DNA of 64,000 nucleotides, from NCBI RefSeq assembly GCF_027887165.1, contig NC_077229.1, positions 110,624,994 through 110,688,993 on the forward strand, written 5' to 3'. The position numbers and the translations under genes are program-made. This document shows positions 16,570 through 58,300 of the stretch, piece after piece. Under the pieces are notes generated by a model. That model was not told the DNA's origin and ran no database searches. It saw only the letters and a program-made list of their open reading frames with translations. The stretch comes from Monodelphis domestica. Taxonomy: Eukaryota; Chordata; Mammalia; Didelphimorphia; Didelphidae. Each line of letters begins with the position of its first letter. Positions within the stretch are counted from its first letter, which is position 1.

Positions 16570-18606
16570 CTAGAGTATTTTTCCAGGATTAAAAAAATCA
16601 TGTTCTTTCCCTCCCCTCCTCTCAACCCCCTCCCATAGCCGACGCACAATTCCATTGGGTTTTATGTGTCATTGGTCAAGACTTATTTCCATGTTATTGA
16701 TATTTGCACTATGGTGATCATTTGGGGTCTATAACCCCACTCACATCCCCATTGGCCCATGTGATCAAGCAATTGTTTTTCTTCTGTGTTTCTGCTCCCA
16801 TAGATCTTCCTCTGAATCTGGATACTGTTCTTTCTCATAAGTCCTTCAGAATTATTCTGGGTCATTTCATTGCTACTCATAGAGAAGTCCATTATATTCG
16901 ATTGTACAATAGTGTATCAGTCTCTGTGTACAATGTTCTCCTGGTTCTGCTTCTTTTACTCTGCATCAGTTCCTAGAGGTCATTCCAGTTCACATGGAAT
17001 TCCTCCAGTTCATTGTTTCTTTGAGCACAATAGTATTCCATCACCAACAGATACCACAATTTGTTCAGCCATTCCCGAATCAAAGGGCATCCCCTCATTT
17101 TCTAATTTTTTGCCACCACAAACTTCACAGCTATGAATATTCTTGTACAAGTCTTTTTCCTTATCTCTTTGGGCTACAAACCCAGCAGTGCTATGGCTGG
17201 ATCAAAGGGTAGGCAATCTTTTAGCGCCCTTTGGGCATAGTTCCAAATTGCCTTCCAGAATGGTTGGATCAATTCACAAATCCATCAGCAATGCAGTAAT
17301 GTCCCAACTTTGCCACATCCCCTCCAACATTCATTACTTTCCTTTGATGTCATGTTAGCCAATCTGCTAGGTGTGAGGTGGTACCTCATAGTTGTTTTGA
17401 TTTGCATTTCTCTGATTATAAGAGAATTAGAACATTTTTTCATGTGTTTATTGATAGTTTTGATTTCTTTATCTGAAAATTGCCTATTCATGTCCCTTGC
17501 CCATTTATTGATTGGGGAATGGCTTGGGGTTTTTTTGGTAGAATTGATTTAGCTCTTTATAAATTTGAGTAATTAGACCTTTGTCAGAGTTTTTTGTTAT
17601 AAAGATTTTTCCCAATTTGTTGCTTCCCTTCTAATTTTAGTTGCATTGGTTTTGATTATACAAAACCTTTTTAATTTAATGTAATCAAAAATATTTATTT
17701 TACATTTTATAATTTTTTCTAACTCTTGCTTCATCTTAAAATCTTTCTTTCCCAAAGATCTGACAAGTATACTATTCTATGTTCACCTAATTTACTTATA
17801 GTTTCCTTCTTTATATTCAAGTAATTCACCCATTCTGAGTTTATCTTGGTGTAGGATGTGAGATATTGATCTAAACCTAATCTCTCCCATACTGTTTTCC
17901 AATTTTCCCAATAGTTTTTGTCAACTAGTGGATTTTTGTCCCCAAATCTGGGATCTTTGTGTTTATCATAGACTGTCTTGCTGAGGCCACTTACCCCAAG
18001 TCTATTCCACTGATCCTCACTTCTGTCTCTTAGCCAGTACCATATTGTTTTGATGACCACCACTTCTTTATAGTACAGTTTGAGGTCTGGTACTTATTGC
18101 CCACCTTCCTTCACATTTTTTTTCAATATTTCCCTGGATCTCCTTGATCTTTTGTTCTAGCTCATCCTACCCACAAGCAATTAATGTTTTTTCCCAATTA
18201 TTTAGATCTACTTTTAATTATGTGGATAATGTTTTGTAGTTGTGTTCAAATAGTTCTTGTGTTTGTCTTGGCAGATAGATTCCTAAGTATTTTATATTGT
18301 CTAGGATGATTTTAAATGGAATTTCTCTTTCTAACTCTTGCTACTGAAATGTGTTGGAAATATATAGAAATTCTGATGACTTATGTGGGTTTATTTTGTG
18401 ACCTGCAACTTTTCTAAAGTTGTTGATTACTTCCACTAGATTTTTGGTGGATTCTCTAGGATTCTTTAAGTAGACCATCATATCATCTGCAAAGAGTGAT
18501 AGCTTGGGCACCTCATTACCTATTTTAATACCTTCAATTTCTTTTTCTTCTCTAATTGCTACTGCTAGTGTTTCTAGTACAATGTTAAATAAAAGCGGTG
18601 ATAATG
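16570..18606 (-). mobile_element. L1 3' segment (ORF2 from the FADD motif onward, plus 3' UTR), part of a twin-primed L1
   Basis: Read on the minus strand this begins at [20 protein letters not shown], passes the reverse-transcriptase active site ([13 protein letters not shown]), continues through the ORF2 C-terminus and ends in an L1 3' UTR near 'ggaaaaatactcta'. Many stops interrupt the frame, so the copy is dead. The + strand segment 18607-20306 is the directly preceding part of the same element in opposite orientation. Confidence 0.85.
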
Positions 18607-20306
18607 TAAAGTAAAAGTAAAAATAGTTTTGTTTAAAAGAGATAGGGAAGGTAATTACATTCTGATAAAAGACAGTATAGACAATGAGGAAATATCAGTA
18701 ATCAACATGTATGCACCAAATTGTATAGCATCCAAATTTCTAAAGGAGAAACTAGTGGAGTTAAAGGAGGAAATACATAGTAAAACTATACTAGTGGGAG
18801 ACCTGAACCTTCCTCTATCAGATCCAAATAAATCAAACCAAAAAATAAATAAGAAATACTTAAGAGATGTGAATGAAATCTTAGAAAAATCAGAGTTAAT
18901 AGATATGTGGAGAAAAATAAATAGGAACAAAAAGGAATACACCTTCTTTTCAGCAGCACATGGTACATTCACAAAGATTGACCATGTACTAGGACATAAA
19001 AACATGGCAAACAAGTGTAAAAAAGCATAACTAATAAATGCAACCTTTTCAGATCAGAATGCTATAAAAGTAATAATTAGTAAGGGTACATGGAAAGCCA
19101 AATCAAAAATTAGAAATTAAATAATGATTCTCCAAAACCAGTTAGTTAAATAACAAATCATAGAAACAATTAATAATTTCATTGAAGAAAATGACAATGA
19201 TGAGACATCCTTTCAAAATCTATGGATCGCAGCCAAAGCAGTACTCGGGGGAAATTTATATCCTTGAGTTCATGTATTAACAAATTAATGAGGGAAGAAG
19301 TCAATGAATTGGGCATGCAAATCAAAAAACTTGAAAGGGAACAAATTAAAAATCCCCAGTTGAAAACTAAATTAGAGATCCCCAAAATTAAAGGAAAAAT
19401 TAATAAAATCAAAAGTGAAAGAACTATTGAATTAACAAATAAGACTAGAAACTGGTATTTTCAAAAAACAAATAAAAAAGACAAAGTATTGGTCAATTTA
19501 ATAAAAAAAAAAACAGGAAAGAAAATCAAATTAATAGCATCAAAGATGAAAAAAGGGAGCCCTCACCTCTAATGAAGAGGAATTAAAAACCATTTTGCCC
19601 AATTATATGGCAATAAATATGGCAGCCTAGGGGATATGGATGAATATTTACAAAAATATAAATTGCCTAGACTAACAGAGGAAGGAATAGAATAATTAAA
19701 TAATCCCATATCAGAAAAAGAAATTGAACAAGTCATCAAAGAACTCTGTAGGGCCTGATAGATTCACAAGTGAATTCTATCAAAAATCAACGAACAACTA
19801 ATCCCAATACTATACAAACTATTTGACATAATTTGCAAAGAAGGAGTTCTACCAAATTCCTTTTATGGCACAAATATGGTACTGATTCCAAAGCCAGGCA
19901 GGTCAAAAACAGAGAAAGAAAACTATAGACCAATCTCTTTAATGAACATAGATGCAAAAATCTTAAATAGAATACTAGCAAAAAGACTCCAGCAAGTGAT
20001 CATGAGAGTCATTCATTATGATCAGGAATGCAAGGTTTAATATTAGGAAAATCATCCACATAATTGACCATATATATCAATAAGCAAACCAACAAAAATC
20101 ACATGATTATCTCAACAGATGCAGGAAAAGCCTTTAACAAAATACAGCACTCATTCCTATTGGAAACACTAGAAAGCATAGGAATAGAAGGGCTGTTCCT
20201 AAGAATAATAAACAGCATTTATCTAAAACCATCAGTAAACATCATCTGCAATGGGGATAGATTAAGAGCATTCCCAGTAAGATCAGGAGTGAAACAAGGA
20301 TTCCCA
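18607..20306 (+). mobile_element. L1 ORF2 segment (endonuclease to RT motif before FADD), inverted part of the twin-primed L1
   Basis: The endonuclease part is clear at 18629-19030 (INMYAPN, LVGDLNLPLSD, GTFTKIDHVLGHK). Linker and RT blocks follow ([16 protein letters not shown] near 19920, STDAGKAFNKIQHSF near 20110, VRSGVKQGFP near 20290). It stops exactly where the neighbouring minus-strand segment begins in the protein (QG-P/PLSPLLF). Stops and frame breaks are frequent, so it encodes nothing functional. Confidence 0.85.
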
Positions 20307-28871: not shown

Positions 28872-29310
28872 GCCCTAAAACATAGAATCAGCATCCCCAT
28901 TTTATAAATAAGAAAGCTGAGACTGAAAAGGCTGAAACGGCTTCTAGCTGCCTAAAACATAGAATCAGCATCCCCATTTAATAGATGACAAAATTGAGGC
29001 TGAAAAGGCTGAAACGGCTTCGAGCTGCCTAAAACATAGAATCAGCATCCCCATTTAATAGATGAGAAAGCTGAGGCTGAAAAGGCTGAAACAGCTTCTA
29101 GCTGCCTTAAACATAGAATCAGCATCCCCACTTAATAGATGGCAAAATTAAGGCTGAAACAGCTTCGAGCTGCCTAAAACATAGAATCAGCATCCCCATT
29201 TTATAGATGACAAAATTGAGGCTGAAAAGGCTGAAACGGCTTCTAGCTGCCTAAAACATAGAATCAGCATCCCCATTTAATAGATGACAAACTTGAGGCT
29301 GAAAAGGCTT
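28872..29310. repeat. 77-bp minisatellite, about 5.6 copies
   Basis: The unit runs from GCCTAAAACATAGAATCAGC through 'atccccattt(a/t)atagatga' and 'gaggctgaaaaggctgaaac' to 'ggcttcgagct'. Copies are very similar. The fourth lacks an internal 9-bp 'gaaaaggct' block. The unit contains a piece resembling an antisense SINE core ('cccatttaatagatga'). It lies in the presumed intron of the minus-strand gene. Confidence 0.93.
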
Positions 29311-33960: not shown

Positions 33961-34714
33961 ACATTCATTAAATGCCAACTTGAAACCAAAGCACTGCGCT
34001 CCAGGCTGGAGACAAAAAGATAGATATGACCCAGGTCAAAGGAATCTCTCCCACCTCAGCATTCCCCTAAGACTCTGCCTGGGTCTTCCTTTTCACTTGT
34101 CTCTCTCCCTCCTAGCATAGTTGTATGAGTATTAAAGGATAAGCTCCAAGAGCCAAGATCTAGGCTTCAATCAGCCATTCATCATGCCTTCACTCTCATC
34201 TAAGCTTCTGTTCTCAGCCTTGGAATCCAATCCTGGTGGTGGGGATGGGAGGAAAGGAAGGAGGTTGGAGGGAGATAGAAGAAGGAGATCTAGCCCTAGA
34301 TCTCTGAAAACTCAAAATATGGAAAGGGAGACTGAATACCCATTCATGCATGATGTGGTTAAAAAGAGCATTTGAGGTCGAGACCTGGGTTCCAATCTTG
34401 ACTGAACTTTGTGATCATAGGCAAGTTACTGTACTTCTAAGCCTCAGTTTCCTCATCTCCATCAGAAAAAGGTATTCAGACTTGGCAAAGGAATCATCTT
34501 GTTAACAGATTAACACTTTTGATGAATCATCATCTATAAATATATCCTGGCTGGAAATCAGTTTGTCAGAGGCCAATCCCTCCTCCTCTATAGGATTATT
34601 ATAAATAAAGCCCTTCATAATCCTGAAAGCACCATTCAAAGGTAAACTACTATTCTGTTATAAGAATAAGCTATTGTCATTTCTGGGGTTGTTAGGTGAA
34701 CTCTGTGAAATGAG

Positions 34715-34898
34715 GGCTTGCCTCAGAGTCAGGAACACCTGAGTTCAAATTCAACCTCAGACACTCACTGTGTGACCCTGAGCAAGTCATTTAAATTCCA
34801 CCTTCCTCAGTTTCCTCATATGTAAAATGGGTATAATATTAGTACATATCTCCCAAAGTTATCATTTGAGATAATATTTGTAAAGCACTTAGTAGTCG
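34715..34898 (+). repeat. MIR-type SINE, left part, interrupted by the LTR structure
   Basis: 'gagtcaggaacacctgagttcaaattcaacctcagac', 'gtgtgaccctgagcaagtcat' and 'tcctcatatgtaaaatggg' lead to 'gtaaagcacttagtag'. The element resumes after the inserted structure as a TAG-repeat run and 'tagacatttaataaaaatttgttcccttcc' (35464-35570). Confidence 0.8.
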
Positions 34899-35463
34899 TG
34901 TCAACATGGAATCTAGAAACCCCAAACTTATAGCCTAGTAAGATCTGATGAACCCCAAGTTTTAGGACTAGCTTGTAAATTGGAGACCCTAAAGTTTGTT
35001 CCCTGTTGATGAGGTGGATGAGAATCCACCCTGAAGGGAATCTCAGGCTAGCAGTTTCAGACTGAATAATGGACCCCAAGGTAAATGACAATCTCCATCA
35101 GGTGGAGCCAAGCCCAAGTTAAGTGACTCTTTAGCACAGTAGGCAGCAAGTCAGTCTCGTAAACTGAAGGTCCTGGAGTTCAATCCTCGAAAGGAGAGTG
35201 TGATACAGTGGGAGAGGACTCTGGAGATGAGAGGAGTCACTTAGCTTGAGCGTGGCTCCACCTGATGGAGATTGTCTTTTACCTTGGGGTCCATTATTCA
35301 GTCTGAAACTGCTAGCCTGAGATTCCCTTCAGGGTGGATTCTCATGAGAACAGGGAACAAGGACAACTTTTGGGGTCTCCAACTTACAAGCTAGTCCTAA
35401 AATTGGGGGTTCATCAGATCTTACTAGGCTACAAGTTTGGGGTTTCTAGATTTCATGTTGACA
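34899..35463. mobile_element. Inverted LTR pair flanking a tRNA-like sequence (LTR fossil)
   Basis: A 565-bp hairpin-like unit with perfect 10-bp ends (TGTCAACATG...CATGTTGACA). The right arm 35199-35463, read on the minus strand, is a 265-bp LTR-like sequence with TG...CA ends. The left arm 34899-35129 is the inverted copy of its first ~230 bp, about nine in ten positions identical by eye. A tRNA-Met-like sequence fills the centre. Flanks GTCG and GTAG suggest a 4-bp target duplication inside a MIR-type SINE. No viral genes are present. It is an old, non-coding fossil. Confidence 0.8.
35125..35198 (+). tRNA. tRNA-Met-like sequence captured between LTR arms (pseudo-tRNA)
   Basis: The 74 bp align from end to end with vertebrate elongator tRNA-Met at roughly four in five positions as I recall it. 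They carry an A-box-like block (TAGCACAGTAGG), the anticodon arm (GTCAGTCTCGTAAACTGAAGG) and a B-box match (GTTCAATCC). The anticodon position reads CGT rather than CAT, and acceptor-stem pairing is imperfect, so it is unlikely to be a working tRNA gene. It abuts the right LTR at 35199 and shares GACTC (35125-35129) with the end of the left arm. Confidence 0.75.
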
Positions 35464-35473
35464 GTAGTAATAG

Positions 35474-35531
<58 letters not shown>
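35464..35531. repeat. (TAG)n microsatellite
   Basis: About 20 TAG units next to the LTR structure. They grew from the 'tagtag' of the interrupted MIR-type SINE. Confidence 0.93.
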
Positions 35532-35599
35532 ACATTTAATAAAAATTTGTTCCCTTCTCCTTCCTGCCAGAAGATAGCATTAGAATCCTGTTCCTGTTC

Positions 35600-37120
35600 C
35601 TTAACAGCTGTAGGGCCTAGGGAAAATCTCTTGATTTCTCTGGGCTTCAATCCTCTTCTATAAAAGGAAAGAGCTCAAGTAGGTGACCTCCGAGGTCCCT
35701 TCTCTGTATTCCATTTTGTTCACTGTCTCACCTCCTTGATATTCTCTTCTCTCTTTTTTGTTCTCCTCTTGCCTATCTGTCTGCTCCTTCTCTGTCGCCT
35801 TTGCAAAAATCCTCATCAGGATCTCACCTTCCAGCTACTAGTGCCCCACGGGGTTCTGTCCTGAGCCCTCTCTATTTCCCCCATCAAGGAGTCCAGCTGT
35901 GACCCTCCCCCTCCCGGTCACCCATCCCCCCTCCTTCCTCAGCCTCAGAATCAAACTTCTGAAAGATTAATGGACTGTTTGAGGTGCACCCTAATCTCCT
36001 CTCCCTGCCTTGGGGGGGAGGAAGGAGAATGGGCTGGGGTACAGTGGGGAAAGAGGCTGGATATACCCTCAAACAGGAGGGCTTGCCGAAAGATCTTACA
36101 GATGCAAGAGGCCAATCCCCTCGTTTATGTAAGGGGAAACCGAGGATCCAAAGGGGATGTGACTTTGCCCAAGGTCACAGCAAGGTAGTGGCAGGAGAGG
36201 AATAAACACTGGTGGCTGGATACTAGCCTACAGCCCAATCCACTGCTGTCCCACACAGACCCTATTCTAGTCAGTCAGTGGGGCGTGGGGTGAGGAGGCT
36301 GTACTGGGGACCACTGAAGGGCAGGGACTGGCTCAGAGCTGGGACTCTCCTCTGAAACAGCCACATGTAAACTTGTAGCGCCAGCCCCCTCCTCCTCCTG
36401 TGCCCTTGGCTTTCCCTCTGTCTTTTCAGAGTGAGGAGAGTGCAGAAACCACAGGATATCTGTAAAGAGAAGCCTCGACCAGCACCATTTGTTTGGTCCC
36501 GGCCGGCTTCTGCAGGCGCCACTATCCCACCCTCTCCCAGGCTTCTCATCTCCACTTAATCTGCGCCAGCTCTGATCCCTCTGAAGGCTGCCAGTGACAT
36601 CTACCGGAGGCTGGGGAGATGAGCCTGGCTCCTGTCCCCTCAGGCTGCTTCCTTCCCAAGCCCCAGCTGTCAGCAGTCGCCGGATGGCAGCCCCAGAAAG
36701 CAACATTGGGACAAAAAGAGAGACATGACAGAGCTGAAGGAGCCATCAAAGACAGAACATAGCACATCAGAGCTGGGAAAAGCTTCAACAGGCTATAGAA
36801 TATAACACCTGGAAAGGACCTAGAGCCTACAAAGTCCAACCTTAGATGTCTTCTGATACAACCCCTCTAATGGGAGACGTTAGGGAGCAATCGCCCAGAG
36901 ATGAGCATTAACCTGCCTAAGGTCACACAGGAAAACAACGAGCAATCCAGAATGAAAATGGAGGCTTTAACGGACATTTGGCAGCCACCAGAGGCTTGAA
37001 AGGAAGCAGGAACTTTCCTCCACTGCCAAAATATTTTACCCTGAGATTTGTCAGAGTACCAGAAATTCTATTTGAAATTCATTCCCTTAAGTTTATGTCT
37101 TCCATTAAAATTCAAGGACA
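35600..37120. other. Mostly unique region with a GC-rich block, no supported gene
   Basis: 35870-36080 and 36270-36720 are GC-richer than their surroundings. The longest frame is 143 codons on the minus strand (36275-36706), starting MLLSGAAIRRLLTAG. It has no recognised domain, and overlapping frames are equally open, so I do not call it a gene. An antisense MIR-type fragment lies near 36100-36180. Confidence 0.4.
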
Positions 37121-41259: not shown

Positions 41260-41510
41260 AATAATAGCTAGCATTTATAGGTAGCACTTTGCAAAGCATT
41301 GTACAAGTATTATGTCATTTTATTCTCATAACACTGGGAGCTAGGTGCTATTATTATCCCCATTTTTTAGGTGAAGAAAATGAGGCAGACAGAGGTTAAG
41401 TGACTTTCTCACGGTCACACACTAGTAAGTATCTGAGGTTGGATTTGAACATGAGTCTTCCTGATTCCAATTCTAATGCTCTATCCACTTCGGCACCTAT
41501 CTTCCTGGGA
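41260..41510 (-). repeat. MIR-type SINE, antisense, full length
   Basis: It contains 'gctagcatttataggtagcactttgcaaagcatt', 'attattatccccatttt' and 'ttaagtgactttctcacggtcacac', then the inverted head 'atgctctatccacttcggcacc'. A sense MIR-type copy lies at about 41955-42200, followed by an (ATT)-rich tract. Confidence 0.85.
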
Positions 41511-42401
41511 ATAAAGATCTTGGGCTTGGAAAAAAAAAAGGGGGGGGCATAGGCACGGGGGCGAGGAAGTAGGTAGAATGGAATTTTACATTTCAACTCA
41601 TCTCCTCCAAAAAGTTTTCTTGAACAAATTGCATTCTTCTCTGAGCATTCTTGTTTACTGAATCACTAGCAGCACTTACATTTACAATCTGAATTATACA
41701 CTCTTACCTTTATAAATGCACTTCCTTAGCAATCACATCACAGAACCACAGAGCATTCGGGCTGAAAGCATCTTTACAGTCATCTACTCCTACTCTCCCA
41801 TTCCATTGATGAGAAAATTGAGGACCAGTGAAAGGACTATCCCCCAAATCACATAAGTAGGTATAAGAGCCTAGACTCAGACTCTAGCTCCCAATCCCCA
41901 CTTTCATGCCTTTGTTCTCAAATTTCCTTTGTGTGAATTTTATCTCATTGAACCTGGAGACAGGAATATCTGAGTTCAAATCCTACCTTAGACACTTAAT
42001 AGCTATGTGAACCTGAATATGTCACTTAACTTCTGTCTGTCTCAGTTTCCTAATCTATAAAATGGGAATAATAACAATTCTACCTCCCAAGGTTATGTGA
42101 AGATCAAATGAGATAATCTATATGCTTTACAAAACTTAATGCTGAACAACTGCTAGTTATTATCATGATCACTATTAGTATTATCATTGTTGTTATTATA
42201 ATTATTATAATCACCTCAGCCAGATGGGAAACTTTCTGAGAAAAGGGGCTTTTGTCTATGTTTTCCTTTACCTCCAAGGTACCTAGCATCGAACTGGACA
42301 AATAAATGATATATAAATGTTTATTAAATAGTATGGAATAAAATGGACTCAATTTATTTTAAGTATCTACCATGTATATGACCCAGTACGTGGCAATTTG
42401 G

Positions 42402-58009: not shown

Positions 58010-58300
58010 TAAGTGCATATAGGTTAAGGCTCTGAAGTGAGGAAAGCTTGAGTTCAAGTCCAGCCTCAGACATTTACCTGGCTGTATGACTAGGCAAGTA
58101 ACTTAACCTCAATTTCCTCAATGGGGATAATAAGAGTACCTACCTCTCAGGGCTATTATGAGGATCAAATGAAATATTTATGAAGCATTTAGCTCAATGC
58201 CTGACATATCCTGCCTTCCTTCCTTCCTTTGTTCCTTCCTTCTTTCTTTCCTTCCTTTCTTCCATGCTTCCTTCCTTCCTTTCCTTTTTTCTGAGTCTCT
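58010..58300 (+). repeat. MIR-type SINE followed by (CTTC)n
   Basis: 'gaggaaagcttgagttcaagtccagcctcagaca' to 'tgaagcatttagctcaatgcctgacatat' is a sense MIR. It is followed by a CTTC/CTTT microsatellite at 58210-58290. An antisense MIR-type copy is at about 58395-58590. Confidence 0.85.

Follow-up and report, generated by a model that had tools for sequence, protein, structure and literature searches.

A 565-nt hairpin around a tRNA-Met-like centre in Monodelphis domestica, possibly a product of aberrant reverse transcription

RESULTS

Two inverted arms enclose a tRNA-like centre

The stretch of Monodelphis domestica DNA analysed here (64,000 nt in all, referred to as the window) is repeat-rich, with a G+C content of 41%. 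At positions 34899-35463 it contains a 565-nt hairpin, in which two inverted arms are arranged around a centre that resembles elongator tRNA-Met. The parts of this element and its immediate surroundings are as follows.

34701-34892, + strand: MIR-like (CORE-SINE type) repeat left of the element
34895-34898, + strand: possible 4-bp target duplication, left copy (GTCG; weak, 3/4 match to the right copy)
34899-35129, + strand: left inverted arm (231 nt), with outer end TGTCAACATG and inner end GACTC
35125-35198 (approximate), + strand: elongator tRNA-Met-like centre, its first 5 nt common to the left arm
35199-35233, + strand: single-copy stretch between the tRNA and the right arm (the inner LTR end in the earlier reading)
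35234-35463, - strand: right inverted arm (230 nt), with outer end ...CATGTTGACA
35463-35531: (GTA)n microsatellite, 22.7 copies
35464-35467, + strand: possible 4-bp target duplication, right copy (GTAG), formed by the first bases of the (GTA)n run

MIR-like repeats are scattered across the window, and one pair of them, at 41309-42117, is itself inverted (77% alike over 165 columns, with about 490 nt between the copies). Elsewhere in the window lie a minisatellite at 28874-29309 (77-nt unit, 5.8 copies; period of 145 nt within 29005-29304) and an open frame at 18605-19030 (+ strand) that matches Pfam PF03372 (endonuclease/exonuclease/phosphatase; E = 2.1e-5; 24.8 bits, cut-off 24.5) and is probably a LINE fragment. 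Pfam found no retroviral domain in the 20 open frames scanned, out of the 30 in the window with at least 110 aa.

Both arms have the same outer end, TGTCAACATG, and their agreement, followed inward, stops at GACTC. Alignment thus confirmed the inverted arrangement, the identical outer ends and the break point described in a first-pass annotation of this DNA. When one arm is aligned with the inverted other, 13 of the 224 aligned sites are mismatched and there are 13 gap columns in addition, so that the difference of about 10% given earlier is reached only with the gap columns counted, whereas by substitution it is 13/224. Without a scrambled patch in the alignment, 10 substitutions remain in 204 sites, 7 of them transitions, which corresponds to a divergence of about 5%. 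Uneven homogenisation of the arms was rejected, with similar differences in the outer and inner portions (6/94 vs 4/110, P = 0.52).

The scrambled patch places 35008-35030 of the left arm opposite 35339-35350 of the right arm. On the left, GGTGGAT (35013-35019) is the reverse complement of ATCCACC, which follows after a 4-nt gap (35024-35030), and the right arm forms a perfect palindrome, TTCTCATGAGAA, at this place. The patch looks like a small template-switch mutation.

Folded as a single RNA strand, as the first-pass annotation had suggested, the 565 nt reach -417.9 kcal/mol, compared with a mean of -171.6 (sd 6.6) for 100 dinucleotide shuffles (z = -37). None of the 100 shuffles folded as well, which rules out a chance hairpin.

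BLAST at E values up to 1 returned the element alone when the window was searched for a second copy of the arm. In a local alignment of 35250-35463 to the window, the best tile scored 59, compared with 46-53 for six plain shuffles, but 13 of 30 Markov shuffles reached or passed that score, and on this ground we recognise no further arm-related sequence there. Exact scans of viral contigs with two core strings of the arm gave 0 matches, as did a scan of genome contigs with the first string; these collections, which hold viruses and prokaryotes, are little informative here.

The centre matches elongator tRNA-Met, with a decayed 3' end

Scored against 24 human tRNAs, the centre reached 81-86 with three elongator Met sequences and 46 with the next isotype, while the best tRNA-Met score elsewhere in the window was 33. 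The earlier description of a tRNA-Met-like sequence between the arms is therefore confirmed (86 vs 46), and another tRNA isotype is ruled out among these human sequences. A MIR-type head is ruled out as well, since the tRNA-Met match is far above any elsewhere in the window. The strong sequence match did not extend to recognition at the gene level: ARAGORN, run with the bacterial code, reported 0 tRNA genes at the centre, and Rfam gave 0 matches at its gathering threshold. With a loose threshold, the Rfam tRNA model scored 14.8 bits (E = 7; gathering 29), as one of five sub-threshold matches. The centre is tRNA-Met-like by sequence and is not a recognisable tRNA gene. An A-box-like motif, TAGCACAG, lies at 35132 and a B-box-like motif, GTTCAATC, at 35178.

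Relative to human elongator tRNA-Met, 15 of tRNA positions 1-73 differ and there is one extra base. The changes are distributed unequally. Within the core (positions 8-63), 7 of 56 positions differ, 4 of these 7 in CpG sites, which leaves 3/48 at non-CpG positions; in contrast, 6 of the 10 positions 64-73 on the acceptor side differ, and CCA is absent after position 73. The contrast between 6/10 and 3/48 gives a Fisher P of 0.0004, or 0.009 with a gapped alternative alignment. Only 4 of the 7 acceptor-stem pairs are possible, and the other 3 cannot form. The earlier reading of the 74-bp centre as a full-length primer is supported only in part: the core is well kept, and the 3' end, where a captured primer should match best, matches worst. 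A caution against over-weighting this end comes from acceptor pair 6-67, which is kept through a change on both sides, from C-G to T-A: the element may derive from a variant tRNA that already had T-A at 6-67, in which case the count for 64-73 would drop to 5/10.

At the other end, the local tRNA match begins at tRNA position 3 and, over roughly 5 nt, gives way to the left arm by way of the shared GACTC. Such a 5' end argues for the copying of an RNA. The tRNA is oriented, relative to the LTR direction that the first-pass annotation inferred for the arms, as a primer joined to minus-strand DNA would be, in support of what had been proposed.

The tRNA core and the arms can share one age

If the arms and the centre arose in a single event, the divergence of the tRNA from its parent is expected to be about half of that between the arms. 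The non-CpG positions of the core (3/48) are compatible with half of the arm rate (10/204; P = 0.11), and the core and the arms can therefore be of the same age. Over all 73 tRNA positions, 11 of 65 non-CpG positions differ, which is more than the arms allow (P = 5e-7); this misfit is due to both tRNA ends. A single event could thus account for the core but not for the 3' end.

CpG depletion was dropped as a further sign of age. The observed/expected ratio over 1-64000 is 0.108 (288 CpG vs 2666 expected), and 139 of 276 tiles of 231 nt contain no CpG at all, so that depletion of the whole window makes this measure useless for dating the element.

LTR assignment of the arm is not supported

The right arm together with the single-copy stretch had been described as a 265-bp unit with TG...CA ends. 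At the outer end, TGTCAACA is present in both arms, but the opposite end falls in single-copy sequence and is defined only by where the tRNA is judged to stop. Since 35199-35233 occurs once, the TG at 35199 is not independently fixed. An 11-nt agreement of 35199-35233 with the head of a MIR consensus was noticed post hoc. For this stretch, 0 of 500 shuffles were as good, compared with 6 of 500 for the longer 35194-35245, which matched the rest of the window no better than its own shuffles did; the agreement is possibly due to chance.

The models of 11 LTR clades reported in PMC3601003 provide a reference for the termini and internal signals. The termini TGT...ACA match the class III ERV motif given there, and TGTCAAC misfits the general LTR terminus TGTTRNR. 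The same source describes AATAAA as well conserved in all Metaviridae and retroviruses that it investigated and the TATA box as a less conserved motif, with TATATA filling both roles in HML viruses. In the element, AATAAA, ATTAAA, TATAAA and TATATA each occur 0 times on either strand. AATAAT is read in both arms, the nearest AATAAA lies outside the element at 35538, and a single TATAA is present, in antisense in the left arm only. Nor does a TGG-type primer-binding site occur at the junction.

Altogether, filing the arm as an LTR is not supported, because polyadenylation and TATA signals and a TGG primer-binding site are missing and the inner end is unfixed. The missing signals lower the claim that the arm is an LTR; they do not lower the claim that the element was made by reverse transcription.

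The flanks are consistent with insertion as a unit

The MIR-like repeat to the left scored 100 against a MIR consensus, compared with a maximum of 39 in 500 shuffles. Most window copies similar to it end at or before 34862, and one, 65% alike, reaches 34892. A weak paralogous MIR copy at 58036-58192 (65% alike) continues beyond the matching point with other sequence. To the right, the flank at 35531-35600 matched itself alone within the window; the MIR-like repeat may resume on this side of the element.

The 4-bp target duplication suggested earlier, GTCG/GTAG, agrees at 3 of 4 positions, but 337 of 3055 pairs of 4-mers drawn from the two flanks agree at 3/4 or better. The outer ends are also not fully sharp: repeat detection carries the arms a further 12 nt outward on either side, with pairing at 7 of 12 positions, although GTA/TAG steps, present in the two flanks, are partly self-complementary. 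We regard insertion as a unit as likely and not proved, given that the 3/4 duplication adjoins the (GTA)n run, that some pairing goes on beyond the termini and that the MIR-like repeat is seen only to the left.

DISCUSSION

A hairpin made by reverse transcriptase is the tentatively favoured origin

We tentatively favour, at a probability of about 0.36, the reading that a reverse transcriptase made the element as a one-off DNA, which was then inserted in one piece. The enzyme would have copied at least 231 nt of an LTR-like sequence and passed onto a methionine tRNA somewhere near the tRNA 3' side. It would then have copied the tRNA to its 5' end, where the template was exhausted, and the new 3' end may have folded back through the short match GACTC/GAGTC. 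Copying of the same sequence in reverse to the outer end would yield a palindrome with identical termini, which may have been inserted beside the SINE-like repeat, perhaps with a 4-bp duplication. The arms, the tRNA-Met match and its orientation, the break at GACTC and the equal outer ends are observed features, from which we infer the identity of the enzyme, the order of steps, the action of an integrase and insertion as a unit; the arm as an LTR and the tRNA as a covalently attached primer are putative elements of the reading.

Several results support this origin. The tRNA-Met match leads by a wide margin, the tRNA 5' end and the break in the arm, where an RNA template would end, are no more than about 5 nt apart, and the core and the arms can share one age. 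In addition, TAG steps are found in both flanks on the same strand, the TGT...ACA termini fit the class III ERV motif (PMC3601003), and read-through of the primer tRNA has been described in vitro (PMC10986323). Weighing against it are the decayed acceptor positions 64-73, the absent CCA and the 3 of 7 acceptor pairs that are impossible; the divergence of all 73 tRNA positions in excess of the arm rate; the misfit of TGTCAAC to TGTTRNR together with the missing polyadenylation and TATA signals and primer-binding site; the need for a fold-back hairpin, which has one duplex end, to be opened and copied before two ends are available for integration; and a window in which no second copy is seen.

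A more specific version, namely failed retroviral reverse transcription, is quite doubtful. It supposes that plus-strand synthesis copied the primer tRNA past the modified stop base to the 5' end and folded back, and that the palindromic LTR-tRNA-LTR product was integrated via two identical U3 ends. A whole captured primer must show the tRNA 3' end and CCA at the joint, because DNA synthesis starts there. For the 3' end observed here, two readings remain: a template switch into the acceptor or T stem, or a tRNA-like part that is older and belongs to a repeat.

The closest parallels cover parts of this scheme. According to the methods of PMC10986323, an enzyme in vitro extends plus-strand cDNA by copying into the primer tRNA attached to it, and the product was amplified. 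As is proposed for our element, plus-strand DNA enters an attached tRNA and the tRNA and LTR come to lie in one DNA; those products were made in vitro with tRNA(Lys-3), whereas the locus described here is chromosomal, has no CCA and carries an inverted second arm. The palindromic junctions of 2-LTR circles that are cut by foamy-virus integrase (PMC1180852) parallel the proposed scheme in that an integrase recognises inverted LTR ends. They differ in being a 20-nt bipartite palindrome at joined ends, with no 230-nt arms mentioned, and the main text of that paper does not mention a tRNA.

Cassandra elements of plants carry 5S RNA sequence inside their LTRs. On this reading, they resemble the present element in that a Pol III RNA gene sequence has been taken into an LTR-type element, and differ from it in being a large plant family with direct LTRs and a different RNA. 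Among the hits listed in searches of open-licence PMC papers, none, judged by title and the first part of the abstract, describes a comparable locus.

A long-TIR transposon is nearly as likely

Although we favour reverse transcription, it is nearly as likely that the element is a non-autonomous DNA transposon (of the MITE or foldback type) with TIRs of about 230 bp and a tRNA-derived loop, that is, one family member, mobilised by a transposase through the TGTCAACATG ends. The long, near-perfect inverted repeats, the equal outer termini and the possible 4-bp duplication are all consistent with such an origin, as are the missing polyadenylation and TATA signals and the greater change at the tRNA ends than in the arms. 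At 565 bp, the element is too short to hold an integrase-like transposase gene. The closest known counterparts would be the Ginger transposons described in PMC2836005, which have 4-bp duplications and termini of the form TGTNR, shared with most Gypsy elements and fitted by TGTCA at both outer ends here, and among which Ginger1 has TIRs of up to 270 bp. Ginger elements nevertheless span several kb and encode a transposase, and the description of them in that source mentions no tRNA loop. Their targets also differ, with CCGG/CCGT for Ginger1 and a preference for RTATAY in Ginger2, compared with GTCG/GTAG here, and the mammalian record given there is a derived host gene, Gin-1. In addition, a transposon leaves unexplained why the loop starts at the 5' end of the tRNA. 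The two origins may be compatible, if one reverse-transcription event founded a family.

Chromosomal repair and retroposition are less probable

It is unlikely that the hairpin formed without reverse transcription, through chromosomal fold-back repair or template switching that inverted and duplicated an LTR-like or other repeat beside a tRNA pseudogene. Fold-back at a 5-nt match such as GACTC is also typical of DNA repair, the inverted 7-nt repeat within the left arm (35013-35019, 35024-35030) suggests later switching at the locus, and a SINE is seen only to the left of the element. Extension of the inverted repeat by 12 nt into the flanks would fit such an event, but good pairing ends at one and the same terminus in the two arms, and the outer 7/12 falls in GTA/TAG steps.

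More improbable still is a retroposon with a tRNA-Met head (a SINE, or a tailless tRNA retropseudogene with other sequence) that was mobilised by a LINE and folded back during copying: the A- and B-box-like motifs and an acceptor 3' strand decayed as in SINE heads agree with it, but there is no poly(A), the element ending in ...CATGTTGACA, the TTTT at 35277 is expected to stop a Pol III transcript within the right arm, and no second tRNA-Met head occurs in the window. Tailless tRNA retropseudogenes, which are reverse-transcribed from tRNA, truncated at the 3' end, free of poly(A) and mobilised by L1, have been reported in therians (PMC5322556), and to that extent they resemble the centre; the portions of that report drawn on here describe no inverted arms. 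The heads of CORE-SINEs are too changed to reveal their parent tRNA (PMC3403934), unlike the centre.

Implications

If aberrant reverse transcription followed by integration produced the element, the genome would preserve a record of a primer tRNA copied to its 5' end, a copying step otherwise met in vitro (PMC10986323), and of the integration of a molecule whose termini are alike. If two identical U3 ends were integrated, an integrase can join two like ends. If instead the element belongs to a family, it would represent a mammalian inverted-repeat element that carries a tRNA and is a possible source of long hairpin RNA.
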